DNA from: Bacteroidota bacterium
GTDB taxonomy: Bacteria > Bacteroidota > Rhodothermia > Rhodothermales > UBA10348
DNA length: 64,000 nt
Direction of reading: 5' to 3'
NCBI GenBank assembly: GCA_029262835.1
Contig: JAJCYQ010000060.1
Coordinates: 1 to 64,000, forward strand
Both the position numbers and the translations under genes were made by a program. Positions 46,189-58,796 of the stretch are shown piece after piece. Within the stretch, counting starts at the first letter, position 1, and the number at the start of each line of letters is the position of its first letter. The notes beneath the pieces were generated by a model, which saw nothing but the letters and a program-made list of their open reading frames with translations, was not told the origin of the DNA and made no database searches.

Positions 46189-48525
46189 TCAACGACGAAC
46201 CCAGATAAGCGCCGTTTGGGCTGGAACAGGAACAGCGGAGGCCTTTGCCGGATCGACGGTTGGGTCTTCGCGTCCGTCTGGGTAAACGCGCTGCCCGTCG
46301 GAAATCTGTACCCAATCGGCGACCGGGAGCGCCAGGTCAGTGAAAAGACCCTCCTGCCGGCCTGCATTTATGAGCACGAGCACGCGGCTGTCAATGAGAT
46401 ATCCCAGCATGTCTGTACGCTCAGGTTCAAAAAAGCGGTAATATCCCGGCTCTGGAACGTCGCCTCCTACGCGAAAAACAGATCCATCTGCTGACATCCT
46501 GAATGTAAGCAGGCCCCGCCAGAAAGCGAGCATGGCATCGTAGTCCATGGGGCTTGTCGCGCCGACTGTATCCCACAGATAGTGATTGGCACGTCGAAGG
46601 TTGTACGTGTCACGCTTGCCATGGATATAAATAGGACCCGATTCCGTCTCTTTTACGAGTTCGACGAGTGGGGCCACGCCTTTGGAGCGCATGATCTCGG
46701 TGCCTCCGTGCAGGACAATAGGTCCCAGGGACGTTGTGAGAAGAGCTGCTGCGATCCGGAATGCGGGCTCGTCAACATGAACAAGCCCATTCCAGTCTGT
46801 ATCTGAAAAGCGATCCGCAAGCGTCCAGTTGTCGTGGATGTCGAGATAGTTGATACCTCGATTGGGGTCCAATTCCTCCGGAAAGCCGTTCGTCAGGCCG
46901 AGTTTCGCCCGGTCACGGACCGTGCCGTCGCCCCCAGCGAAGCCGCGATCCGTGCGTGGGTCCTGGGGGTTGGAGACGGGGCCCTTGAATGCATTTCTTG
47001 CGTCGTCCTGGAAGTAGGTGATGGGAGCGTCGGCCTTATACCACCCGAAATCAGGGTCTGACGCTACAACGGGATCGGTAGGCGGAATCCAGGCCTCGCC
47101 GTATATGATGACGTCTTCAGGCAATTGATCCTTCACCCAGCGGAGCGTCTGTTCGTCGATCTGTCCTGCCAGATCAATCCTGAATCCATCCACACCCAAT
47201 TCATCGATCCAGTGACGGAGTTGGTCCAGGATCCAGCGCTGGACCATTGGCCGCTCCTCGGACTTGATCTCGTTACCAAACGGACCAATGTGCCGAAGGG
47301 AGTCATCGGTTCGGTAATAAAACGGCAGGTCAATGGCATTGAAATTAAAGAGCAGGTGCCGCCCATCCATATTTTCTCCCGTGTGGTTCGGGACTACATC
47401 GATGATCACAGACAGCCCTTTCTCGTGGAAGGCTTCGACCAGCGCCTTGAACTGCGCCCGCTCTTCGCCTGGCTCCGCGAGCGGGTCGCGGAAACGGGAT
47501 TCGACGGCAAAGGCGTGCGTTGTCCGGTACCCCCACTGGTAATTCTCTTCCGCTATCCCTTGCTCCATCATGTACGGATCGTCGCGGAAGGCGGCTTGCC
47601 ACTCCTCGTCTGGATAATGAAGGTATTCCTGTACAGGCATGAGGTGGACCACGTTGACGCCGAGATCCACCAGGTGATCAAAGCCAACGGCCTGTCCGCG
47701 TGCATTCCTGAGGCCTGGCGTGGCCATGGCGCGAAGCGCGCCGCTTCCTGCGACGTCGATGGGCAACATGTCTGTGAAATCCTGGACGTGGACCTCATAG
47801 GCTATGACATCTTCCATCGGGGGCCTCCCGCCGACAACGGGAGGTGGGGGGGGTGTATCCTGCCATACGCGTGCCTTTCCGTAGGAATCATCGCTGACCA
47901 GTGCGTATGGATCTGTAACATGAATGGGGTAGGTTTCAAAGAAATAATTGCCGCGATCACTGGGGCCATGAATTGTGTACGTATAGTAGACACCGTGGTG
48001 ATTGCCGGGCTCTGTGGCCTCCCAAACGCCGTCGTCGTCGACACTCATGAGTACCGTCCGGTCGGGACGGGAGGTGGGTGTCTCCCGGTCTGCAAAAAGA
48101 TGGAGCTCGACACCAAAAGCCCTGGGGGCGAACAGTCTGAAGGTCGTACTGCTGCCGTCTGAGGCTATCGTGGCACCTAATTTCTTGTCCGAATAAAGCG
48201 TCGAGAACCATGCATCCCGCCGGATGAAGCGCTCCTCGCCAGTGGGTCGGAAGTAGAGCGTATGGAGTCGCCGGGGGTCCAACTCTTCGGCCGGTACGAG
48301 CAGGTAGGACATGGACCGCTTCGGGAGGACCGCATCGATGCCTATCTCGCGGCCATCAGCAGAGCGTACAAAAAAGTCGCTGGCATCCGGCTGGATGCTG
48401 GTGTTCGCAACGTGTACGATGAGTGTACTTGCATCCTGTATCTGGACGCTGGACAGATCCTGGCGTGCAATGCCCGGTGTGACCAGGAGCAGCAGGAAAC
48501 AGAAGGAAATGATGGCGCGGTGCAT
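46189..48525 (-). CDS. Secreted GH13 alpha-glucan hydrolase (pullulanase type I-like)
   Basis: Exported enzyme of 778 residues acting on alpha-glucans such as pullulan, starch or glycogen. Signal peptide about 1-21; N-terminal beta domains including a CBM48-like module (about 125-195); GH13 catalytic barrel from about 240 to 680. All GH13 landmarks are visible: DVVPNH (376-381), nucleophile Asp451 in GFRIDLAG, acid/base Glu477 in IIYGEAW and Asp565 in DIHDN. A C-terminal beta domain ends the protein. The CBM48-plus-GH13 layout and the YEVHVQDFT opening of the barrel point to pullulanase/debranching types. The ATG at 48525 gives the signal peptide. Confidence 0.88.
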   Translation of the reverse strand: MHRAIISFCFLLLLVTPGIARQDLSSVQIQDASTLIVHVANTSIQPDASDFFVRSADGREIGIDAVLPKRSMSYLLVPAEELDPRRLHTLYFRPTGEERFIRRDAWFSTLYSDKKLGATIASDGSSTTFRLFAPRAFGVELHLFADRETPTSRPDRTVLMSVDDDGVWEATEPGNHHGVYYTYTIHGPSDRGNYFFETYPIHVTDPYALVSDDSYGKARVWQDTPPPPPVVGGRPPMEDVIAYEVHVQDFTDMLPIDVAGSGALRAMATPGLRNARGQAVGFDHLVDLGVNVVHLMPVQEYLHYPDEEWQAAFRDDPYMMEQGIAEENYQWGYRTTHAFAVESRFRDPLAEPGEERAQFKALVEAFHEKGLSVIIDVVPNHTGENMDGRHLLFNFNAIDLPFYYRTDDSLRHIGPFGNEIKSEERPMVQRWILDQLRHWIDELGVDGFRIDLAGQIDEQTLRWVKDQLPEDVIIYGEAWIPPTDPVVASDPDFGWYKADAPITYFQDDARNAFKGPVSNPQDPRTDRGFAGGDGTVRDRAKLGLTNGFPEELDPNRGINYLDIHDNWTLADRFSDTDWNGLVHVDEPAFRIAAALLTTSLGPIVLHGGTEIMRSKGVAPLVELVKETESGPIYIHGKRDTYNLRRANHYLWDTVGATSPMDYDAMLAFWRGLLTFRMSADGSVFRVGGDVPEPGYYRFFEPERTDMLGYLIDSRVLVLINAGRQEGLFTDLALPVADWVQISDGQRVYPDGREDPTVDPAKASAVPVPAQTALIWVRR

Positions 48526-48605
48526 GACACTGTGGGTGTGTATGAACAGAATCAAAGCGCTCTGCGCCTCCGCTGTTCCCCGAACAAACCCAGACGCGCC
48601 CTACG

Positions 48606-51600
48606 TCAGGCGGCTCGGCGAGGGAGTCGTAGGATGCGGGCTGTATGGCGCGCACTGTAGGGCGCCAGGTGCGTGATGAGTCGTTCTTCCAGGACGGTCT
48701 GCGACCAGCCATGGTCCGTTACGGCGGAGACTCGCACGTTCGTCGTCGTCTCATCGGTATCCTCCCACGATATATGGAGGCTGTCCGCGGCATGCTTATG
48801 CAGAAAGGGCTGCATGATCTGCACGACATCCTCGCGAACGGCAACGAGGTTGGCCGTACACTGTACAGGTACGGTCAGATCGGTTTCCTGCGCGCCCCAC
48901 AAAAAGGTGATGGCGGGACCCATGGCTGCTCCCGGACTCATGACGATCGACTGCCCGGTCTTCAGCTTCATACGGACAGACATGTGGCTGTACATCATAT
49001 CGTCAACTATAACTCCATGATAGAGAGCGACATATCTATTTTTAGCAAGTAATCGTATTCTAATCTGAATGACCGTCGCTACAAATTGTACAGCCGTCCA
49101 CGATTCTATGATGACCGAAACAGCTGACAGGCCCAGTGTCGCTGAAATCCCGGCCAGAGGGCCCATTGTAGCCACGACACCTACAAGCACGAGGCCGTAT
49201 AACACACCCTGGCGGACATGCCACAGAGTTTTGGATTCGTGGAGCGTTGTGATATTCCCCAGCTCCACATGGCGCATGCGCATGACGTGTCGAAGCGCCA
49301 GGTCGGCGGCAAGCAGGTAGCTGAGTGCGGAAAGAACCAGAAGAAGGAGCGCGAATGGGGACTTGGCCCTTCTTTGAACGCTTGTCGGGGGAGGAACGTG
49401 GACGGGTGTCTCGACAGGCGCCGCGTGTAATGACCCGACTTGATCTTCGTTGGTAACTTCTTTCCTTGTTTCGGCAGGACGTCCCGTTGTTGAATCCGTT
49501 GGCGTACTTGCGGGCTCGTCGGGTACTGATTCCATCGGAGTAGCGATGGGTGCCGAGACCGGTGCAGCGGGCGAAACAGGAACATCTGATTCGCTGCGGG
49601 TGCCGAGCTGCAGCGATCCATCCTGTCCTGTGTTCTGGAACCGAATGGTACGTTTGACGGGCTCGGCAACGAATTTCCGAGTCGTGACGGAGTCTCCCTT
49701 TACGACGATTTTAAAAACGTCCTGTCGAAACGTATGATATGCAGGCAGTCGGTCCGCTGAGATCAAATGCAGTTCGTACATGCCTCCGGGTATACCCCGG
49801 AAAGCGAACGAGCCACGCTGATTCGTACGGGTCCGCCAGGATCGTGTCCCCGAGCGAAGTTCAATGAGCGCACCCAGAATACGATCTTTCTCAATGAGGC
49901 TGTCACGTTGCCCGGCGTACAGAAGATCGGGGTTTCCTTGAGGCCCGAGACGCACCACATGTCCTTCTACTGTGCCCGACGCAACGATGGGCAGGTCAAT
50001 GTGCGATACATCAGGTCCAACGAGATACGGCATTTCCAGCAGTGGAACCGTTCCGGGTGGTAGGGACACCTGGTTGACCTCCAGATACCAGGAACCCGCT
50101 TCTGTTCGCGGCAGACGAAATGCGCCGTGCGCATCGCTGATGGCCATGTTTTCGCCATACCGGATCAGAACATTTTCTATGGGAAGACCTGTAACGGCAT
50201 GGTAGACAACGCCTTCAATCAATGCGTCAGAGGTGTTGCTAGAACGCGGATTGGGAATGCCCAGGGGCATACTGACACCCAATCGGAATTCCACGCGCCT
50301 GGCTGCTGATCGCCCGTCCGAGATGCTGGACTGGGACTGGACGAAGGCACGGCTGCCTGATTCAAATTGCTTGGAAGCCTGGAACGTGAGGCTCCTATAC
50401 GTCTGCTCGCTGCGTCCAGACACATGATTCTGCACACCGCCGAGCGACAGGTTGATTCTTGAGGGGAGCTGTACTCCGGCGCGGACGCCGTACTGCGCGT
50501 ACTGTTGGCGAATGCGCGACGAAATCAAAAAATCAGAGAATCGGTCTGCGCTCAGCGACATACTCAGCCAAGGCGTGGGATGTAGCCTGGCCTGGATGCG
50601 CGTCCGATTGACGGGAGAGGATGCCTGGTTGCTGTCGAGACGTCGTCCGATTTCGCGTGTGGCCGAAAGGCCTATTTTTGATCCCTGGAGGCCGGTCGTG
50701 AGGCGCAGCATGCGCGACTCCGTGGACAATTCCTGAGATGGACTGCGCAGCGCCAGCACGTCGCGCGTACCCTGGATTGTTGTTGAAAGCGTGGTTCCGG
50801 AAATCCGTTTGGCATAGGTCATGCCCAGTTTGGCCACATGGGAGCTCCTGTCCGATCCTGTGCCACTGCGTCTCTGTTGGACCTGGAAGGACTCTTCCAC
50901 GTGGAGACCTGGAAGCAGGCGGACCCTCATGGTTTCTGAAATCATTTGCGTTCCCGACCGGGATCCGGGTAGGGAACTGGCGGCACTGAGGGCTTCAATG
51001 CGCGTCCGGAAGGGACCCCGAGCCAGTGCCGTTTCCATTCGGCAGGAAGGATCGGACAGATTCGACACGCCACATTCCGCAGCAAGTGCGTGGCGAGCGC
51101 CTGTTGGCTCCCAGTCGTACGCCAGCGTCGCCACAGAGCCCGTATACAGCCCTTCTCGATACAGTGCATTCGTCGACAGGGACGATGCGTCCGAGAGATG
51201 TCGCTTGAGAGATAGGCCTGCTACCAGGTCATCGGGGGCATAGGCGCGATTGCGGCTAGCCAGCACCGTGACGTCCCATTCGTCGTAGCGTACGCGTGAC
51301 CGTGCGCCCATCCGATAGATGCCCCAGGTCGTCAGTGGCGACAGGTTCTGGGGCTGGTCACCTACGACGACGTCCAGTTTGTCCGAGGTGTAGGCGACCC
51401 GGATCTCATTCCTCGCGCCATACAGTCCCTGCGAAGAGTTATTGGCAAGTGTACCAACGACTTCTACATTGCCATCTAATGCATCGAATGTGCTTGCGAA
51501 CCGCGCAACGGGCTGAGCAGACTGGTCGTCTCCAATGGCTTCAATAGTAAGGGAGAGGGGCACGGGAGTGCCGCGTGCCGCCAATTTTTCGTACAGGGGG

Positions 51601-52325
51601 ATGATGTCCGTCCGCACGGATATCTGGGCAGTTGCATCGGTATGATCAATGACCTGCGCCGTAATCGTATAGGATGCCGTTGTGACGTCAGTGACATCTC
51701 CGTCTGTCGTCCAGGCAACAGGAATATCCATGGACGCGCCCGATGCGATCTCGATCTCACGCCTGGACCAGTCAATGGTGCCGGCGCCTGAGCCATCCCA
51801 GGACAACAAGACGTCTGCCGGGGCGTTTCCGTTATTGTAGACGGTCAGCGTGCTCTGGAGTGTTTTTCCCGCCGCGACAAATGCCGGGGGTGCGTCGATA
51901 TCGAGCGCCAACTCGTGCAGCGTACTGACGGAAACGGATGCCGTCACCTGGGAAGTTATTTCCGGTCTGTCTGGATCAAGGATGGAAAATGTAACCGGAT
52001 ATGTGCCGGCGAGATAGCGAAGCGGGACATGGATGCTGATGAGCCGGACAGTGGGAGCGTCCGGATCCACGGTCACCGCGCCCTGTGGTCGGAGGGACCG
52101 CCACCCGTCAGGGAGGTGAATCTGCGGCGAGAGCCGGATGGCCGTCGAACCGGACTGTTCGACGCGAAAAGCCAGCGTGAGGACGTCACCCGGTTGGACG
52201 CCGATCGTTTCGTCGCCTACGACAGAAACAGAAACGGAGTCCTGGCCGGAAATGCTTTTCGCCGCACCCTGGAGAGGCACGGCGAAAAGTATCAATAACA
52301 AGAGTATGTGACGAAAATGTTGCAC
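48606..52325 (-). CDS. Giant NEW3/Ig - beta-barrel-like - MscS-like fusion protein
   Basis: Single frame of 1239 residues that I cannot assign to a known family. Signal peptide 1-21. Residues 30-240: two Ig-like NEW3-type domains (PGDVLTLAFRVEQSG, IHVPLRYLAGTYPVTFSI). Residues 255-690: alternating polar/hydrophobic strands like an outer membrane barrel. Residues 702-890: two carboxypeptidase-regulatory-like domains (SDAHGAFRLP, NQRGSFAFRGIPGGMYELHL). 895-985: Pro/Ser/Thr-rich linker. 989-1090: three hydrophobic helices. 1095-1239: a region matching the MscS beta and alpha/beta domains in pattern (HGVIVDDMMYSHMSVRM, GQSIVMSPGAAM). It starts at a GTG sharing one base with the chaperone-like stop. 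By position it takes the usher slot of a chaperone/usher operon. Confidence 0.75.
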   Translation of the reverse strand: MQHFRHILLLLILFAVPLQGAAKSISGQDSVSVSVVGDETIGVQPGDVLTLAFRVEQSGSTAIRLSPQIHLPDGWRSLRPQGAVTVDPDAPTVRLISIHVPLRYLAGTYPVTFSILDPDRPEITSQVTASVSVSTLHELALDIDAPPAFVAAGKTLQSTLTVYNNGNAPADVLLSWDGSGAGTIDWSRREIEIASGASMDIPVAWTTDGDVTDVTTASYTITAQVIDHTDATAQISVRTDIIPLYEKLAARGTPVPLSLTIEAIGDDQSAQPVARFASTFDALDGNVEVVGTLANNSSQGLYGARNEIRVAYTSDKLDVVVGDQPQNLSPLTTWGIYRMGARSRVRYDEWDVTVLASRNRAYAPDDLVAGLSLKRHLSDASSLSTNALYREGLYTGSVATLAYDWEPTGARHALAAECGVSNLSDPSCRMETALARGPFRTRIEALSAASSLPGSRSGTQMISETMRVRLLPGLHVEESFQVQQRRSGTGSDRSSHVAKLGMTYAKRISGTTLSTTIQGTRDVLALRSPSQELSTESRMLRLTTGLQGSKIGLSATREIGRRLDSNQASSPVNRTRIQARLHPTPWLSMSLSADRFSDFLISSRIRQQYAQYGVRAGVQLPSRINLSLGGVQNHVSGRSEQTYRSLTFQASKQFESGSRAFVQSQSSISDGRSAARRVEFRLGVSMPLGIPNPRSSNTSDALIEGVVYHAVTGLPIENVLIRYGENMAISDAHGAFRLPRTEAGSWYLEVNQVSLPPGTVPLLEMPYLVGPDVSHIDLPIVASGTVEGHVVRLGPQGNPDLLYAGQRDSLIEKDRILGALIELRSGTRSWRTRTNQRGSFAFRGIPGGMYELHLISADRLPAYHTFRQDVFKIVVKGDSVTTRKFVAEPVKRTIRFQNTGQDGSLQLGTRSESDVPVSPAAPVSAPIATPMESVPDEPASTPTDSTTGRPAETRKEVTNEDQVGSLHAAPVETPVHVPPPTSVQRRAKSPFALLLLVLSALSYLLAADLALRHVMRMRHVELGNITTLHESKTLWHVRQGVLYGLVLVGVVATMGPLAGISATLGLSAVSVIIESWTAVQFVATVIQIRIRLLAKNRYVALYHGVIVDDMMYSHMSVRMKLKTGQSIVMSPGAAMGPAITFLWGAQETDLTVPVQCTANLVAVREDVVQIMQPFLHKHAADSLHISWEDTDETTTNVRVSAVTDHGWSQTVLEERLITHLAPYSARHTARILRLPRRAA

Positions 52326-53137
52326 TAATTGATGGCGAGGGTGTATTCAGCTCCAAAGACTTCATTCATCCCGGCATCCATGATGACCAGGGCCTTGTAG
52401 TCGCCCTTCGGGAGGCTACCCAGAACTATTTTCTGCGTGACGGATGTGCCGGGGTAGATCCGGTTCTTGAACCCATCCCGCTTGCCGACCGGATTCCCGG
52501 ACGCGTCATAGAGTTCGATCCATACATCGGGCTGCGCCAGTTTATCGCCATCGTTCGAGATCGCGACGTCAAGCTGTGCTTCTCCCTGTGCGTTTTCCAC
52601 GAGCATACTTTCCATGATGTTAAGTTGACTGGACCCGGTTCCTTCGATATGGGTAGCAATTTGGATGCCATACCGCGTCAATTGCCGGATGCCGAATTCG
52701 GCTTTCGTGGAATCCGCGCTGTTCCTGGACTCTGGAGCATCGGCAGGAATGCCTTCGACCATGATCATGCTCCACCAGGACCCGGAAAGCGTATCCGCGT
52801 CTGGCACGCGTACCGAATATGGAATCGAAATAGTCTGTGACGGTGGAACGCTTGCGTATGACAGGCCGAGATCTACCCATCGGGCATTTGACCGGGGATG
52901 CTCACCCGGCGAATCGAAGTAGTTCGAACCATCGAAGTTGAACGAGTAATCGGTCTGGTAAATCCGCACTTCCTCCATCACATTCGAGTCATTCCGGACG
53001 GAAATACTCCCGTGATAGGTGGTACCAGCCTCAGCGACCTCGTCGTGGCTCAATTGGCTACGGACGGAGATCTGTGCCTGGCTGTCCATGGTTATGCCGA
53101 ATGCCAGTACCAGTGCAGTGAAGAGTAGTCGAGTCAT
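52325..53137 (-). CDS. Periplasmic Ig-fold protein, pilus-chaperone-like
   Basis: Secreted protein of 270 residues with signal peptide about 1-22 (ending SQAQ). Two Ig-like halves are apparent. The first (about 25-130) has the pattern of PapD-type chaperones: GSISVRNDSNVMEEVRIY, a Pro-rich HPRSNARWVDL turn, PSQTISIPYSVRVPDAD and LSGSWWSMIMVEG. The second (about 150-270) has QLDVAISNDGDKLAQPDVWIELYD and ends EYTLAIN. DUF916 and other Ig-fold accessory proteins share this pattern, so chaperone is an inference. It overlaps its upstream neighbour by four bases (ATGA) and shares one base with the giant gene downstream. Confidence 0.7.
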   Translation of the reverse strand: MTRLLFTALVLAFGITMDSQAQISVRSQLSHDEVAEAGTTYHGSISVRNDSNVMEEVRIYQTDYSFNFDGSNYFDSPGEHPRSNARWVDLGLSYASVPPSQTISIPYSVRVPDADTLSGSWWSMIMVEGIPADAPESRNSADSTKAEFGIRQLTRYGIQIATHIEGTGSSQLNIMESMLVENAQGEAQLDVAISNDGDKLAQPDVWIELYDASGNPVGKRDGFKNRIYPGTSVTQKIVLGSLPKGDYKALVIMDAGMNEVFGAEYTLAIN

Positions 53138-53619
53138 TGTGCCAGAAGGGTATAGGTTATGGTGTGCGTATCGTCTCCGTGGATCGTGCTGTTGCCGTCT
53201 CCCACGCGGGCAGACGCCCGGTATTGGAGCGTCCCCGTGCCCTGTTGGGAACGAGGACCTGGCTGGATATTGGTCAGAAGGTCAGCGTCAAACATGCCGT
53301 CGACGAGTTCGACCTCAGGGTTCATATCGGCCACACTTCCGGATCCATAACTGGTTACGCGAAGTGCCACGAACAAACGGAAGTGTTGGGAGGGACTGAT
53401 GGTCGAGACGACCAGTTTGGCAGCCGTTCCGAGATCGGCGTCCCAGAAGATGGCTGTCCCTTCGTCCGTTGCATCGACAGGCTCGTCGCCGGCCGGTGCA
53501 TCGCTGATTTCGAGCGTAATGGGTCCTCCGCCCGACACGAACTCGAGGCGCTGCGCCTCGGCTGCCTGCACGGCCGTAATTGATATAAGAAGCAGTAATA
53601 TGAAGCGGTACAACGACAT
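53134..53619 (-). CDS. Small secreted beta-rich protein, pilin-subunit-like
   Basis: Unrecognised protein of 161 residues: signal peptide about 1-22 (ending AEAQ), then a beta-strand-rich chain ending in the hydrophobic strand HTITYTLLAQ. The terminal strand pattern resembles that of the two upstream genes (YTVTYTITN, RVVFTLTSN), which fits a subunit whose edge strand could be completed by donor-strand exchange. It starts eight bases after the previous gene and overlaps the chaperone-like gene by four. It lacks the NGEDKKI/NEDAKKI segment of the other two, so it is more divergent and might be a minor or tip subunit. Confidence 0.6.
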   Translation of the reverse strand: MSLYRFILLLLISITAVQAAEAQRLEFVSGGGPITLEISDAPAGDEPVDATDEGTAIFWDADLGTAAKLVVSTISPSQHFRLFVALRVTSYGSGSVADMNPEVELVDGMFDADLLTNIQPGPRSQQGTGTLQYRASARVGDGNSTIHGDDTHTITYTLLAQ

Positions 53620-53627
53620 GAAACTAT

Positions 53628-54200
53628 TCAGTTCGATGTCAACGTGAATACCACCCGGCGCGATACGCCTGCAGGACCCGTGGGTGCGGCGGTGATATCG
53701 GCGCGCCCTGTGTAAGCGATACCGAGGTTTGTGGCCGAGATCAGGTTTACATTTGTTACAAGATTCGCGGGGGACGTGCTGAGCGTCTGAAGGGTGGCCG
53801 AGGCGCCGGGCGGCGGTGCGAGCTCAACCGAGAGCTCCATTCCCTCGGGAAATTCCGCGTCCAGGGAGCCCACGATCTTCTTGTCCTCACCATTGACTGT
53901 GAGAGAATACGTGGAGCCGGTGTGCATAACGGGTGCAGGTGGTGTTCCGGCCTGGGCCACCGTAAAGGGTATGCGAACGTCGCCGCTGAGCGCGATCCGG
54001 TTGATTTCGAGTACGCGAACGGTCACGGTCTGCGAAAGAGACACCTGGTTTCCTGCAAGAGGAATCGCATTGGGGAGAGGAGGTGGTGTCTGCGCAACCA
54101 GAGGCGCGGCAGGCAGGAAGAAAGCCAGAAACGCGGCCAGAACAAAAGAAAGGGCCCATGCCGCAAATCCATCAGGTATATGATTCTGTGGATGCAGCAT
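53628..54200 (-). CDS. Secreted pilin-subunit-like protein (DUF4402-type pattern)
   Basis: Protein of 190 residues with a long signal region (about 1-36, ending LVAQ) and a Pro-rich linker before a beta-sandwich-like domain. Segments TVTVRVLEINRIALSGDV, YSLTVNGEDKKIVGSLDAEFPEGMELSVELA and the terminal RVVFTLTSN align by eye with the next upstream gene, so the two are paralogues. The pattern is like DUF4402/spore-coat-U-type secreted subunits, but I cannot confirm the family. AGGAGGG stands four bases before the ATG, an unusually good ribosome binding site for this window. Confidence 0.62.
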   Translation of the reverse strand: MLHPQNHIPDGFAAWALSFVLAAFLAFFLPAAPLVAQTPPPLPNAIPLAGNQVSLSQTVTVRVLEINRIALSGDVRIPFTVAQAGTPPAPVMHTGSTYSLTVNGEDKKIVGSLDAEFPEGMELSVELAPPPGASATLQTLSTSPANLVTNVNLISATNLGIAYTGRADITAAPTGPAGVSRRVVFTLTSN

Positions 54201-54204
54201 GGAC

Positions 54205-54210
54205 CCTCCT
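54205..54210 (-). promoter_or_regulatory. Strong Shine-Dalgarno for the second pilin-like gene
   Basis: AGGAGG on the minus strand, four bases upstream of the ATG at 54200. Most genes here lack a recognisable Shine-Dalgarno sequence, so this site supports the start and suggests high expression. Confidence 0.6.
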
Positions 54211-54240
54211 TCTGTCTTCAGCGATTGGTGACGCGCTCGA

Positions 54241-54723
54241 TCAGTTGGTGATCGTGTACGTTACCGTGTAGCCTGTCGATGCCAATTTACCGGCAGCGGC
54301 TGTGGCCGAGAACGTGTAGTTCAGGGCGAGGCCGGAGGCGGCAATGGTCGACATACCGGTTACGACATCAGCGGCTGTTTCTGTAAGCGGCACGTCCGTA
54401 CTGCCAGTAGCGCCAGTTGGAGCGGCCGCATCGACTACGAGCGACATGTTGGCCGGCAGATTGGCATTGATCTCAGCCGTGATCTTTTTGGCGTCCTCAT
54501 TGGTCGTTACTGCGTATGATGCCGAGCCGTCTACCGGGTCCGGATCGGAACCTGGCGTCGCCTGGTCAATCGTCAGCGTGAGGTTGCCTGTGATGGCAAG
54601 CACGTTGATGGGTGCAACTTCCATGGTGACCGTATGGCCCTCGGAGTCTGTCTGGGCAAAACTGGTGCCCGCGGATCCAAAGACGACGAGTGTAGCAAGC
54701 GCAAGTGCGCGAAGTGTTTTCAT
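54241..54723 (-). CDS. Secreted pilin-subunit-like protein (DUF4402-type pattern), probable major subunit
   Basis: Protein of 160 residues with a classical signal peptide (about 1-24, ending SFAQ) and a mature part of about 136 residues rich in Ala, Thr, Val and Gly. Segments HTVTMEVAPINVLAITGNLTL, YAVTTNEDAKKITAEINANLPANMSLVVDA and the final strand YTVTYTITN mirror the paralogue downstream. Low charge and beta-rich composition fit a polymerising surface subunit. The ATG at 54723 has a perfect AGGAGG nine bases upstream; the frame extends further only through non-secretory sequence. It heads the five-gene run toward the chaperone-like and giant genes. Confidence 0.66.
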   Translation of the reverse strand: MKTLRALALATLVVFGSAGTSFAQTDSEGHTVTMEVAPINVLAITGNLTLTIDQATPGSDPDPVDGSASYAVTTNEDAKKITAEINANLPANMSLVVDAAAPTGATGSTDVPLTETAADVVTGMSTIAASGLALNYTFSATAAAGKLASTGYTVTYTITN

Positions 54724-54732
54724 AGTGATGTA

Positions 54733-54738
54733 CCTCCT
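54733..54738 (-). promoter_or_regulatory. Strong Shine-Dalgarno for the first pilin-like gene
   Basis: AGGAGG on the minus strand nine bases before the ATG at 54723. It decides the start of this gene and is among the best ribosome binding sites in the window. Confidence 0.65.
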
Positions 54739-54779
54739 TGTACATTGTGTTGGATTGAGCCGAAAGCCTGTCCTCCGGC

Positions 54780-54804
54780 CCAAAGGCGGTATCGCCCGGT
54801 TTGG
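54780..54804 (-). other. Leader hairpin upstream of the pilin-like operon
   Basis: Stem of CCAAA/TTTGG with an inner GGCG-tetraloop-CGCC stem (one three-base bulge), located 57 bases before the ATG of the first pilin-like gene. There is no T tract, so it is not a standard terminator. A weak candidate promoter (TTGTCA at 54835-54840, TCTTAA at 54812-54817, 17-base spacing) would start transcription near 54805, putting the hairpin at the very 5-prime end of the message, where it could stabilise it. Confidence 0.35.
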
Positions 54805-54829
54805 AGGTCCCTTAAGAAGGAAATAGCGA

Positions 54830-57808
54830 TTAATTGACAATTGTCATGGTCCTTGTAGCACTCTGTGCACCAACGCGTAAGCGGTACGTGTAAAGGCCGG
54901 ACGAGAGGTTGGATGGGAGCCATACCGTCTCGTGCCAGCCTGCCTCGACCGGGGCGTCGAGGATGCGCGCAACGCGGCGTCCCAGCATGTCGTAGACATC
55001 AATTTCGGCATGCCCCGCCTGGCTCGTTGAGAAGCGCAACGTGGTCGACGTGTGGAATGGGTTGGGGTAATTCTGCGCCAGCACCAGGGGACTGTTCGGC
55101 ACCGTGGCCGACGCTACAGCGGCGTCCAGGCCGGTATAACCCGGGCTCGAGATGATGACACGAAAGCGAGGTGTGGAGCTTTCGGGCAGGGGCGTACCCG
55201 GATCCACTACATCGGCACTGGCCACGGAAAACTGTAACACGGAGTCGGCCAATAGATTGCGCCGTTCGCCGGACTGTAGATCGAGTAGCGTGACGGCCCA
55301 CCCGTCCGGAATGTTGACGACATCGGGCCAGGTCAGTGTGTAGCCTCCAGCCCGCGTGGCCGCGTGGTGAATATCGAACTGGACGTGGTCGTTCTTCGGC
55401 AGGCGCGCATCGAAAGCGAGCCTGGAGCCGGCGTCTTCCGTCCAGAGCGTAGTCCAGTCGGACGAAAGGGGGCTGAGTCGCGATACCTGACCTACGTCTG
55501 AAAGAATGAGGTACGTCTCTGGATCGGCCATCTCCTGACCTTCGATGTGAAGCCGGACGTGAGGGGGAAGGCTGCGGCCCGCTCCCTTGCCGAACTGCTG
55601 GGCCCCCGCTGAAGCGGCAGCCTCGGTGGTCGTCCAGGCCAGCGCTGCGCCGGGAGCGGTTGCCTCCGTCATGATTCCGGAAAAGGGGACGACGTAGCGT
55701 CCGGCGAGGCCGAGACCCGTCGATGCATCGTAATACCGATAGCCGGTTGTACCGCCGCCACTTGTGACCGATGGGTCCCATGTAGCATAAGATGATGCTA
55801 CATCTGAGCTCGCTGAAACCGTTGCGTCCCAATCTATATTGGCGGTCCCGGGATTTGCCGTGTAGACATAGGACCGATTCAGTGAGGCGTCGTACGGTAG
55901 GCTCTCCGTGCCGATTGACGGCACAGATCCCGTCACCGTCCACGTCGCCGGCAGGATATTCTTGCCGAGGGCATCCTTGGAAAACGCATACAGAATGACA
56001 GGATGCCCGGGATCGAGCCCCGCATCGGTGTCGGGCGCATCGGCCCAGTCCTGTGAGGCGAACTGAAACGTCTTCACGTTTGAAATACCCCCACTGACAT
56101 CTGTCCATCCACGACCTTGCGTGTGAAAGGGAGTGTTGAGTGACGAGTACGTCACGCCAGCAAGCGGGGCCGCCAGCATGCGCCATCCATCGCGAGCCAG
56201 CGTGAACGATCTATTCATCTGAATGGGACCTGCGACGGTGCCCGCATTCATGAGGGTCGCCGCGTGGGGGAGCGTAAGCAGGTTTACGGCCGATGTGGCA
56301 AGCGTCCCGCTCCGGACAATGACATGGCTCGTCGCAGTAACGGGCGAGGCGAGCGTCACAGATCCGCCTGCCCGATCTATTACGATGGATGCGAGCGTGA
56401 GCGCTGGTGCGGTCGTTGAAATCGTCGACGCGGCTGCGCCGGAAAAGGTGATTGTGGCCGCCTGGAGAGGAGATTGGCTCAGCTCGAGATCTCCCTGAAG
56501 GTCAATCTCAAACCCGGCCATGTCGAGTCCACCAGCGCGTTCAAGAAGGGCTCCGGACACGGACAGGTCCGTTGCCAACCGTAGCGATCCACTGTCAACT
56601 ACGGTCAGGTCGTAGGAGTCTCTCCACGTCCCCGCCATGCCGACGACATGCTCTGACGTTCCTTCGAGAACGACCGATACGCGTTCCTGCGAGCCCGTCC
56701 GGACCAGTCCGTCCACACTCAGGTTGCCACCTATGCGCACATCGGGTGCGCCGGTGGACCACGATAAATCCAGCGTGGAGCCTGCGGCAACGGTCACGTC
56801 ACCAACGACAGAGAGCGTACCGGATCCGGTAACCTGGTAGGCGAATACACCGGCTTCAACGGCAAGGTCGCGACCAACCGAGAGCGGGGCGCCGAACAGG
56901 TCCCAGGCCATGGCGGCGCTGCCTGTGGATCGAACAATGAAGTCTTCTGCGACACTTGCTGGAGCGGCTCCGAGCGGCAGGTTGGCTGTCTGTGACGTGT
57001 TGTTCCAAATGAACGTTTGCACGTCATGAGCCATATTTGCAGGCAATGTCTGTGTGACGCCCGTGATTTCGAGCATCGAGCCCGGATTCCAGGTGGTTCG
57101 CGCGGGATCCGGGAGCGCCCCTCCGTTGCGGCCGTGCTCAAAAACACCGCCTGCTTCCACCGTAAGGGAAGAGGTCTGTGTCAGGGTGACAACGCCCTCG
57201 TTCGTCAGGCGTCCACCAGCCACACTTGCGACGGCCGTACGATCAAGATTCACGTCGCCTGAGTTGATGAGCAGTCCATCTGACTCAAGATCCATACGGG
57301 CGTCGTCATCGAGGTCAATTTCTCCTGAGTTCAGGACCGTGGAGCCTCCTTCGATGGTCAATGAAGCCGTTCGGTCCAATTCCAACCGGTCGCCAGCATT
57401 GATAAACACCGTCGAGCCGTTTTCGAACTGCAATGAGGCCGCATTCCGCGTACTGATGGTGCCGTAATTCCACAAAAGACCTTCAACCTGCAGGTCTATT
57501 CCTGCACCGTCATCAATGGTCAAATCAGTCAGGTTGTAGAGCAGCGCGCCGGGATCAACCAGGATCTGATCATAACGGCCAGACCGGTCGGCAATCAGGA
57601 AATGGTCCGTGCTGACCGTGATGGCACCGGCGTTCTGATTGCGTGGGGGCCTTCTGGCGGCCTGCCACGAGCCACTGCTGTATGTTTCCCAGGTTGATGA
57701 GGACGACCACCAGCCGGACTGGCGGGTACGGTAGTCGCCGTTTGACTGGGCGTGGGACGGATAGTAAACGGCTGCCAGTAGCAGCAGAAGCAGTAAAAAG
57801 CGTTTCAT
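54830..57808 (-). CDS. T9SS type A sorting-domain surface protein with repetitive beta structure
   Basis: Exported protein of 992 residues. Signal peptide about 1-21 (ending SHAQ). Residues about 50-560 are low-charge, strand-repeating sequence (many short turns such as NSGEIDLDDDARMDLESDG and LTIEGGSTVLNSG), the pattern of a right-handed beta-helix or similar adhesin/passenger. A central region follows, and the last 85 residues form a type A sorting domain: NYPNPFHTSTTLRFS, VYDMLGRRVARIL and GLYTYRLRVG. It should cross the outer membrane by the type IX system and be anchored at the surface. The pilin-like operon starts 107 bases downstream on the same strand. Confidence 0.88.
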   Translation of the reverse strand: MKRFLLLLLLLAAVYYPSHAQSNGDYRTRQSGWWSSSSTWETYSSGSWQAARRPPRNQNAGAITVSTDHFLIADRSGRYDQILVDPGALLYNLTDLTIDDGAGIDLQVEGLLWNYGTISTRNAASLQFENGSTVFINAGDRLELDRTASLTIEGGSTVLNSGEIDLDDDARMDLESDGLLINSGDVNLDRTAVASVAGGRLTNEGVVTLTQTSSLTVEAGGVFEHGRNGGALPDPARTTWNPGSMLEITGVTQTLPANMAHDVQTFIWNNTSQTANLPLGAAPASVAEDFIVRSTGSAAMAWDLFGAPLSVGRDLAVEAGVFAYQVTGSGTLSVVGDVTVAAGSTLDLSWSTGAPDVRIGGNLSVDGLVRTGSQERVSVVLEGTSEHVVGMAGTWRDSYDLTVVDSGSLRLATDLSVSGALLERAGGLDMAGFEIDLQGDLELSQSPLQAATITFSGAAASTISTTAPALTLASIVIDRAGGSVTLASPVTATSHVIVRSGTLATSAVNLLTLPHAATLMNAGTVAGPIQMNRSFTLARDGWRMLAAPLAGVTYSSLNTPFHTQGRGWTDVSGGISNVKTFQFASQDWADAPDTDAGLDPGHPVILYAFSKDALGKNILPATWTVTGSVPSIGTESLPYDASLNRSYVYTANPGTANIDWDATVSASSDVASSYATWDPSVTSGGGTTGYRYYDASTGLGLAGRYVVPFSGIMTEATAPGAALAWTTTEAAASAGAQQFGKGAGRSLPPHVRLHIEGQEMADPETYLILSDVGQVSRLSPLSSDWTTLWTEDAGSRLAFDARLPKNDHVQFDIHHAATRAGGYTLTWPDVVNIPDGWAVTLLDLQSGERRNLLADSVLQFSVASADVVDPGTPLPESSTPRFRVIISSPGYTGLDAAVASATVPNSPLVLAQNYPNPFHTSTTLRFSTSQAGHAEIDVYDMLGRRVARILDAPVEAGWHETVWLPSNLSSGLYTYRLRVGAQSATRTMTIVN

Positions 57809-57894
57809 GGCGGAACGTGTCAGGCGAGGTTGTCCGGAAGTAAATCCCTGTAAAAGGGGGCTCCCGCACTCAGGATCGTCGCGGTTGGAGGATC

Positions 57895-57922
57895 CTTAAA
57901 CGCACTGACCTGCGTCCGTCAA
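57895..57922 (-). promoter_or_regulatory. Candidate promoter for the T9SS surface protein gene
   Basis: TTGACG (57917-57922) and TTTAAG (57895-57900) on the minus strand, separated by 16 bases, leave a leader of about 80 bases before the ATG at 57808. The -35 box is a good match; the -10 box is four of six. Confidence 0.33.
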
Positions 57923-57929
57923 CAGTCCG

Positions 57930-58796
57930 TTACATGGTCGCCGCTTTGAGTGTGTTCTGAAGCAGGACCGCAATGGTCATGGGACCTACGCCGCCAGGCA
58001 CTGGCGTGATATGGCCGGCAATGGGCTCTACCGCATCAAAATCGACGTCGCCGACAAGGCGGTAGCCGCGGTCGCGCGTGCTGTCATCCACGCGGTTGAT
58101 GCCGACATCAATGACTGTCGCACCTGGTTTTACCATCTCGGCCGTTACAAAGTGCGCGCGACCGATGGCCGCGACAAGAATGTCGGCCTGTCGCGCTATT
58201 CCGGCAAGATCTCTCGTGCGGCTGTGGCAGACGGTTACCGTCGCATCTATTCCTTTGCGCAGCATCAGGTTTGCCAACGGCTTTCCAACGATGTTGCTGC
58301 GCCCAATGATGACGCAGTGCGCCCCGCTCGTCTCGATGTCTGAACGTTCGAGCAGTTGGACGATACCGGCAGGCGTTGCCGGCGCAAATCCGTCGAGACC
58401 GATGGACAACCGGCCCACAGACGCTGGATGAAAACAATCCACGTCCTTGTCCGGAGAAATGGCATTGATGACGCGCGTATCGTCAATGTGCGCCGGAAGC
58501 GGGAGTTGCACAAGAATACCATCAACGTTGTCGTCGTCGTTCAGTCGCGCAACGATTTCGAGTAGTTCGGCTTCGGAAATCGTATCAGGAAAGGTCATCG
58601 TATCGCTTTCAATGCCAACCTCCGCGGACGCCTTCGCCTTTCCTCTCACGTAGGACGATGACGCCGGATCGTCGCCGACGAGTACCACGGCGAGGTAGGG
58701 AGCGCGCTTTCCACTGGACGTGTGGGCGAGCACGGCTTGTTTTACTTCCTCTCTGATATCACTGGCGATTTGCCGGCCGTCGATGAGCGTTGCCAT
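57930..58796 (-). CDS. folD: Methylenetetrahydrofolate dehydrogenase/cyclohydrolase
   Basis: Bifunctional one-carbon enzyme of 288 residues interconverting 5,10-methylene-, methenyl- and 10-formyl-THF, cytoplasmic. The active-site Tyr49 and Lys53 lie in SSYVRGKAKASAEVG; other signatures are DGILVQLPLP, PDKDVDCFHPASVG, the nucleotide-binding IIGRSNIVGKPLANLM, and PVPGGVGPMTIAVLLQNT at the C-terminus. It is followed on the same strand by the T9SS surface protein after about 120 bases, and is divergent from the tRNA-Gly gene. Confidence 0.97.
   Translation of the reverse strand: MATLIDGRQIASDIREEVKQAVLAHTSSGKRAPYLAVVLVGDDPASSSYVRGKAKASAEVGIESDTMTFPDTISEAELLEIVARLNDDDNVDGILVQLPLPAHIDDTRVINAISPDKDVDCFHPASVGRLSIGLDGFAPATPAGIVQLLERSDIETSGAHCVIIGRSNIVGKPLANLMLRKGIDATVTVCHSRTRDLAGIARQADILVAAIGRAHFVTAEMVKPGATVIDVGINRVDDSTRDRGYRLVGDVDFDAVEPIAGHITPVPGGVGPMTIAVLLQNTLKAATM

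Follow-up and report, generated by a model that had tools for sequence, protein, structure and literature searches.

In a 64,000-nucleotide stretch from a Bacteroidota bacterium of the Rhodothermales (contig JAJCYQ010000060.1 of assembly GCA_029262835.1, positions 1 to 64,000; the whole stretch is hereafter the window) we analyzed a locus of five same-strand genes, which code for three small secreted beta-proteins, a two-domain immunoglobulin (Ig) protein and a giant protein of 1239 amino acids (aa). With a probability that we put at roughly two in three, these genes specify a chaperone/usher-like fibre pathway that employs a chaperone of the WxLIP type and is built from other protein families. 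The genes, their order and families, the predicted folds, the pattern of N-terminal extensions and the nature of the C-terminal tails presented below come directly out of the computations. An earlier note, made from the DNA letters alone, had proposed a diverged fibre-assembly system at this locus; the fold of the chaperone, the gene order and the usher-positioned giant support that proposal, and the interpretation as a whole is partly supported. The five genes are:

54241..54723 (-): small subunit 1, 160 aa, with N-terminal extension; 35 residues to the anchor glycine; family alignment
53628..54200 (-): small subunit 2, 190 aa, with N-terminal extension; 49 residues to the anchor; paralogue of subunit 1
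53134..53619 (-): chaperone-adjacent small subunit, 161 aa, without extension, a putative tip or initiator; 22 residues from mature start to anchor glycine; adjacent to the chaperone in relatives too
52325..53137 (-): two-domain Ig chaperone of the WxLIP family, 270 aa; identified by family profile and homologous model
48606..52325 (-): giant usher-like outer membrane protein, 1239 aa, GTG start; identified by AlphaFold2 (AF2), Foldseek, VIA and Pfam

A gene set conserved across phyla

The five genes are real and their coordinates exact, and their spacing, as noted earlier, consists of gaps of 40 and 8 bases followed by overlaps of 4 (ATGA) and 1 (TAGTG) bases. A signal-peptide-like stretch starts all five proteins. 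The set is not a product of chance, because the same order as in the window recurs in about 20 related genomes and in distant phyla. A profile of the chaperone recovered members in 42 of the phylum's 394 genomes. When one genome per species was scanned for the chaperone, 111 loci came up, of which 80 were kept. These loci were chosen by the chaperone alone, the giant and the subunits playing no part in the choice; nevertheless, a giant lies 3' of the chaperone in all 77 testable loci, and a small beta-protein 5' of it in 71 of 73. Nearly all the longer loci contain 1 to 8 small-subunit genes. The gene set spans roughly 13 phyla, the record titles of the kept loci naming Ignavibacteria and other Bacteroidota, Deltaproteobacteria, Gammaproteobacteria, KSB1, Zixibacteria, Acidobacteria, Aminicenantes, Planctomycetes, Gemmatimonadetes, Spirochaetes, Armatimonadetes, Verrucomicrobia, Krumholzibacteria and the Firmicute Orenia. 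The gene order, which the earlier note had named as a point to be checked, is thus kept far beyond the lineage.

The genome of the window itself has a second locus on another contig (G000:C61), in which a small protein, a chaperone and a giant succeed each other in this order; its giant ends in LysM and not in the MscS-like tail described below. Conversely, two related genomes (G015 and G020) have no chaperone, and their operon is reduced to collapsed remains. Given the invariable giant, the nearly invariable subunit and the collapse of the operon in these two chaperone-less genomes, co-occurrence and co-loss form the pattern of parts that work together. The giant used as a query matched in 24 of 60 relatives, three of these matches being TonB receptors or TonB-receptor-like proteins with the CarboxypepD domain alone in common. 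Two such receptors (L056 and L057), taken up as candidate giants, were rejected on this ground and left out of the work after the giant alignment. We found no description of this system in the literature searched, from which subscription papers and preprints were excluded.

The chaperone and the usher-like giant protein

To place the two-domain Ig protein we relied on its family, since the window protein alone matched nothing in a single-sequence search. Among 23 close members, seven hit the Pfam family WxLIP_PGBD (DUF916), each with low significance. Run against the Protein Data Bank (PDB), a 99-member profile gave one confident match, the Enterococcus faecium WxLIP protein (PDB: 9i25; E = 2e-10), which spans both domains (profile positions 35-258), and recovered no pilus chaperone at E-values up to 10; PF00345 (PapD_N) likewise has no match in the genome. 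As a structural model we used the related locus L095, in which the chaperone and the preceding small protein were predicted as one chain through the natural stop, a modelling device that makes no claim on the organism. The model reached a mean predicted local distance difference test score (pLDDT) of 87.4. With its chaperone part VIA retrieved WxLIP (Z 16.5) followed by CfaA (12.7), FimC (12.3), CsuC (11.5) and PapD (10.8), and the alignments cover both domains, as expected both of the two-Ig PapD fold and of the DUF916-DUF3324 architecture of WxLIP. The chaperone has no C-terminal membrane helix of the kind present in WxLIP and ends directly after its last beta-strand. By these profiles and models the protein is a WxLIP relative in descent and in fold lies between WxLIP and the pilus chaperones, the former kinship being the one of the two with sequence support. 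Accordingly, the earlier description of a PapD-like chaperone, for which structural comparison with FimC and PapD had been proposed, holds at the level of fold, while by sequence the protein joins WxLIP instead. WxLIP consists of two perpendicular Ig domains, and a hairpin of it is predicted to insert into WxL (PMC10599100); by analogy, such an insertion would come close to the action of a pilus chaperone.

The giant begins with a signal peptide, which is followed by two Ig-like domains, a barrel, two CarboxypepD_reg-like sandwich domains, a linker and a three-helix MscS-like tail:

51591..52238 (-): N-terminal pair of Ig-like (NEW3/DUF11-like) domains, residues 30-245; Pfam NPCBM_assoc and model strands
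50256..51563 (-): barrel, residues 255-690, 26 predicted strands without inserted plug; DSSP strands, pLDDT mostly >90, VIA alignment of residues 251-688 with MtrB
49656..50222 (-): two C-terminal sandwich domains, resembling the usher C-terminal domains, residues 702-890; Pfam CarboxypepD_reg and alignment with PapC (PDB: 7lhh) to residue 890
48606..49349 (-): three predicted membrane helices and MscS-like beta-domain, residues 993-1239; hydropathy, match of the homologous tail in L092 and tail alignment

An AF2 model of residues 1-975 has a mean pLDDT of 86.5, with most of the barrel above 90. Its 26 barrel strands are joined without any insertion longer than about 12 residues, too short for a plug domain, and the model places the two Ig-like domains before the barrel and the two sandwich domains after it. 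Pfam detects CarboxypepD_reg (1.9e-9) and NPCBM_assoc (1.6e-8). PF00577 (Usher) has no match anywhere in the genome, while an E. coli positive control was matched. A Foldseek search of the PDB with the giant had FimD (3rfz_B) as its top match (E = 1.1e-10 over 910 columns), with a low TM-score of 0.20-0.24 that may reflect a different arrangement of the domains. VIA placed MtrB at the top (Z 21.2 over 409 residues), followed by PapC (Z 17.0 over 442 residues), whose alignment runs from residue 249 to 890 and thus into the C-terminal domains. As many unrelated porins also reach Z 14 to 16, a match to the barrel alone is unspecific, and in the model the usher likeness comes from the order of domains on either side of it.

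Given the first place of MtrB, the barrel might be taken for a channel that exports or imports other cargo, such as polysaccharide, or for an MtrB-like conduit, with the small proteins as substrate-binding or lid subunits. The 26-strand porin of the MtrB type (PDB: 6r2q) does share barrel size and strand count with the giant. However, MtrB and the ushers are both large barrels, and a common fold shows no function; the giant differs in its additional Ig and sandwich domains, in its neighbors and in having no cytochrome partner. Moreover, neither cytochrome nor polysaccharide genes are conserved beside the set, and the chaperone-subunit pair would be left unexplained. We therefore rejected the electron-conduit reading of the barrel and regard a channel of this type in general as highly improbable. 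The best reading of the model is that of a plugless, anchored, usher-like pore in the outer membrane. The earlier note had the usher slot taken by a giant fused to MscS: the usher position and the match of barrel and sandwich domains to FimD and PapC by fold bear this out, and the part that fails is the MscS fusion as a replacement, the usher-like part of the giant being its barrel and the tail a lineage-specific anchor.

A comparison of 63 giants revealed that about half end after the sandwich domains, the others carrying LysM, SPOR, a single membrane helix or an MscS-like module, the last of these only in the family of the window genome. The MscS-like tail is thus a local C-terminal anchor; other lineages have LysM, SPOR or a membrane helix in its place, or no tail at all. 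Both LysM and SPOR are peptidoglycan-binding, so tails of these kinds, like the membrane helix, mark the C-terminus of the giant as periplasmic, as in ushers. The window giant has a proline-rich stretch of about 100 residues and then three membrane helices predicted by hydropathy; with the barrel in the outer membrane and these helices in the tail, a single chain would reach the inner membrane. Pfam has no MscS match in the window tail, and MS_channel_2nd (1.1e-4) lies above the cut-off in the homologous tail of L092 alone, being weak in L091 and L094, so that the MscS label appears only weakly in the window protein itself. What the tail shares with the MscS family is three predicted membrane helices and a beta-domain-like stretch; it differs in the weak match, the restriction to one clade and the fusion behind an outer membrane barrel, and a channel function is without support. 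A further tail (L043, 6323-7303 (-)) looks by eye partly protein-kinase-like and continues into a membrane helix; Pfam does not confirm the kinase-like part.

Small subunits and the proposed assembly pathway

Subunits 1 and 2 are paralogous, as had been noted earlier (phmmer 5.8e-16), and the third protein cross-matches both after profile iteration, which unites all three in one superfamily. None of the three matches a Pfam family up to E = 1. A DUF4402 identity (PF14352), a subunit type that the earlier note had brought up, is not supported; this family is also absent among the 25 of 32 families listed for 64 relatives. A WxL identity was rejected on the same window searches, and WxL is equally absent among the families listed for the 64 relatives and for four proteins of another chaperone-adjacent family.

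We then examined the N-terminal region of the subunits, which divides them into two kinds. Counted from the predicted mature end, a conserved glycine lies at a median distance of 21 residues in 35 chaperone-adjacent subunits versus 35 residues in 132 others, a comparison in which related sequences are not independent and the rank-test P value is descriptive only. The difference resides in 13 additional alignment columns, occupied in 85-98% of the non-adjacent and in 3-6% of the chaperone-adjacent subunits, where the hydrophobic fractions alternate (1.00, 0.03, 1.00, 0.14, 1.00). Of the three window proteins, subunits 1 and 2 carry the extension, which is missing from the chaperone-adjacent third. 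The segment in subunit 1 is:

54610..54648 (-): predicted donor-strand extension, subunit 1 residues 26-38; alignment column statistics

In pilus systems the N-terminal donor strand shows such an alternating pattern, and the pilin domain at the tip is without it. At the sequence level the bimodal length and alternating hydrophobic columns of the present subunits correspond to an extension of this type that the tip domain lacks. The donor-strand pattern of pilus subunits has been described (PMC4654587). The C-termini of the subunits lie at the last conserved strand or no more than a few residues from it. Outside Bacteroidota, the chaperone-adjacent slot is often held by a different small family, which also starts directly at the core. 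It is the pattern of N-terminal extensions, and this pattern alone, that suggests donor-strand exchange.

From these observations we infer strand donation, barrel transport, polymerisation and the position of the tip. All three small proteins would enter the periplasm by Sec, where the WxLIP-type chaperone would hold each subunit, probably lending it a strand of its F1-G1 hairpin. The giant would form a 26-strand outer membrane pore, with its periplasmic Ig and sandwich domains as the docking site for chaperone-subunit complexes; at this pore the N-terminal extension of one subunit would displace the chaperone strand in the next, and a linear fibre would grow outwards. Being without an extension, the chaperone-adjacent subunit could accept a strand only, and hence would go first and sit at the tip. 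The C-terminus of the giant would tie the pore to the wall or the inner membrane, here through the MscS-like inner membrane module and in relatives through LysM or SPOR.

Several results weigh against this pathway. At the sequence level, homology to classical ushers or pilins does not rise above controls: hhalign of the giants with eight E. coli K-12 ushers gave 45.6 versus 27.2 for the best shuffled and 37.9 for the reversed control, which leaves homology unconvincing, and the comparison of the small proteins with E. coli pilins was just as unconvincing with signal peptides removed and shuffled and reversed controls run. Raw hhalign scores had been promising for ushers, pilins and chaperones alike; the profile comparison of the chaperone with E. 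coli chaperones lost its significance without the signal peptides. In place of the 24-strand barrel with a plug that is typical of ushers, the giant is predicted to have a plugless one two strands larger than those of known ushers. No adhesin domain was found in the tip candidate. The main uncertainty is that strand donation and barrel transport are deduced from fold, gene order and sequence pattern. Finally, WxLIP itself has been described as a structural, wall-bound partner of WxL and as no transport chaperone (PMC10599100).

This last point, along with the sequence kinship of the chaperone to WxLIP and the frequency of peptidoglycan-binding tails on the giant, would favor a static envelope scaffold, an outer-membrane counterpart of the Gram-positive WxL complex. 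Here the WxLIP-like and small proteins would make up a stable complex at the surface or in the periplasm, and all that the barrel with its LysM, SPOR or MscS tail would do is fasten the outer membrane to the layers beneath it, the wall or the inner membrane. Such a scaffold sits poorly with the variation in small-subunit genes from 1 to 8 per locus, with 13-residue donor-like extensions in all but the chaperone-adjacent subunit, with a 26-strand barrel far larger than an anchor needs, and with a chaperone that lacks the C-terminal membrane helix of WxLIP. We consider it unlikely, and prefer the fibre pathway.

Relation to known systems and the upstream region

The chaperone/usher systems, whether FimC/FimD, the alternative CfaA/CfaC and EcpB/EcpC or the archaic CsuC/CsuD, have in common with the present one the operon logic, the two-domain Ig chaperone fold, a large outer membrane barrel with periplasmic domains on both sides, and small beta-proteins of a single domain, all but one of which carry an N-terminal strand-like extension. 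Here, in contrast, nothing matches the PapD_N, Usher or pilin families; the chaperone is related to WxLIP, the barrel has 26 predicted strands and is plugless, two Ig-like domains take the place of the usher N-terminal domain, and the giant has C-terminal wall or inner-membrane anchors. Since the sequence families, plug and strand number of that family are not found, the system can not be filed within it. The Gram-positive WxL cluster (WxLIP, i.e. DUF916-DUF3324, with small and large WxL; PDB: 9i1y, 9i25) shares a homologous two-domain protein of the same fold that stands beside several small secreted beta-proteins. The present system differs from it in having an outer membrane barrel, a chaperone without the C-terminal membrane helix and small proteins without a WxL match, and in occurring mainly in two-membrane bacteria.

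Tentatively, and at somewhat less than even odds, we suggest that these loci represent a separate, widespread class of the chaperone/usher type, in which the chaperone comes from the WxLIP family and the pore is a plugless 26-strand barrel anchored to the wall or a membrane. Through this class, the WxL complexes of Gram-positive bacteria and the chaperone/usher pili of Gram-negative ones would be linked as branches of one old strand-donation system, and in the clade of the window one polypeptide would extend from a barrel in the outer membrane to an MscS-like module in the inner membrane. If this is true, strand-donation fibre assembly extends to about a dozen phyla in which the Pfam models of chaperone/usher proteins used here find nothing. 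The WxLIP kinship would offer a testable link between the surface systems of one- and two-membrane bacteria, and a plugless anchored barrel raises the question of how the pore is gated. The cultured members Thiohalocapsa marina, Thiococcus pfennigii and Orenia metallireducens make the system testable.

Two further features lie upstream of subunit 1:

54788..54815 (-): sigma-28-like promoter TTAAG-N16-CGATACC; kept in L032-L036, own-genome count compared with a reversed control
54830..57808 (-): surface protein sorted by the type IX secretion system (T9SS), 992 aa, directly upstream of subunit 1; TIGR04183 2e-8, kept in L032-L037 and L039

The gene for the T9SS-sorted protein moves with the set within the same family, and T9SS-sorted genes are co-conserved in paralogous loci as well, so the five genes might be an accessory of the T9SS that helps display this protein. 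In many phyla, however, the core three genes have no related T9SS gene in their neighborhood, and we give this reading hardly any credence beside the fibre pathway.

The motif lies about 65 bases before subunit 1, is kept in five related MscS-tailed loci and resembles a sigma-28 promoter; the genome has eight copies of it versus one for the reversed control. Copies elsewhere (L186, L181 and L184) precede a type-IV-pilin-like gene (two copies), a pilus-assembly-like gene and a lipoprotein-like gene. A gene for a sigma factor of the FliA/WhiG family stands beside the giant of the paralogous locus in this genome and in relatives (L002, 325-1092 (-); L130, 11990-12757). The shared motif and the sigma factor would fit common control of surface appendages in a possible regulon. 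A search of Rfam with positions 48000-58000 returned nothing at the gathering threshold, and for the conserved leader matches at chance level only; the leader was rejected as a known RNA and holds the promoter-like motif instead. The leader (54724-54829 (-)) folds more stably than its shuffles (z -3.1), with part of the ribosome binding site paired in the fold; the real RNA may be shorter, because the folded stretch includes the motif.

In the paralogous locus L031 (545-5835), two tandem long genes show weak similarity to the window's T9SS-sorted protein, and a divergent subunit gene lies opposite in strand to the chaperone and giant of this locus. In the remains of the operon in G015 (L041, 4842-9795) the T9SS-type gene is shortened and the giant is broken into two overlapping frames. 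In those of G020 (L054, 3207-6026) the N-terminal part of a T9SS-type protein continues in frame into the giant's MscS-like tail, leaving 939 aa open, which looks like a deletion of everything in between.

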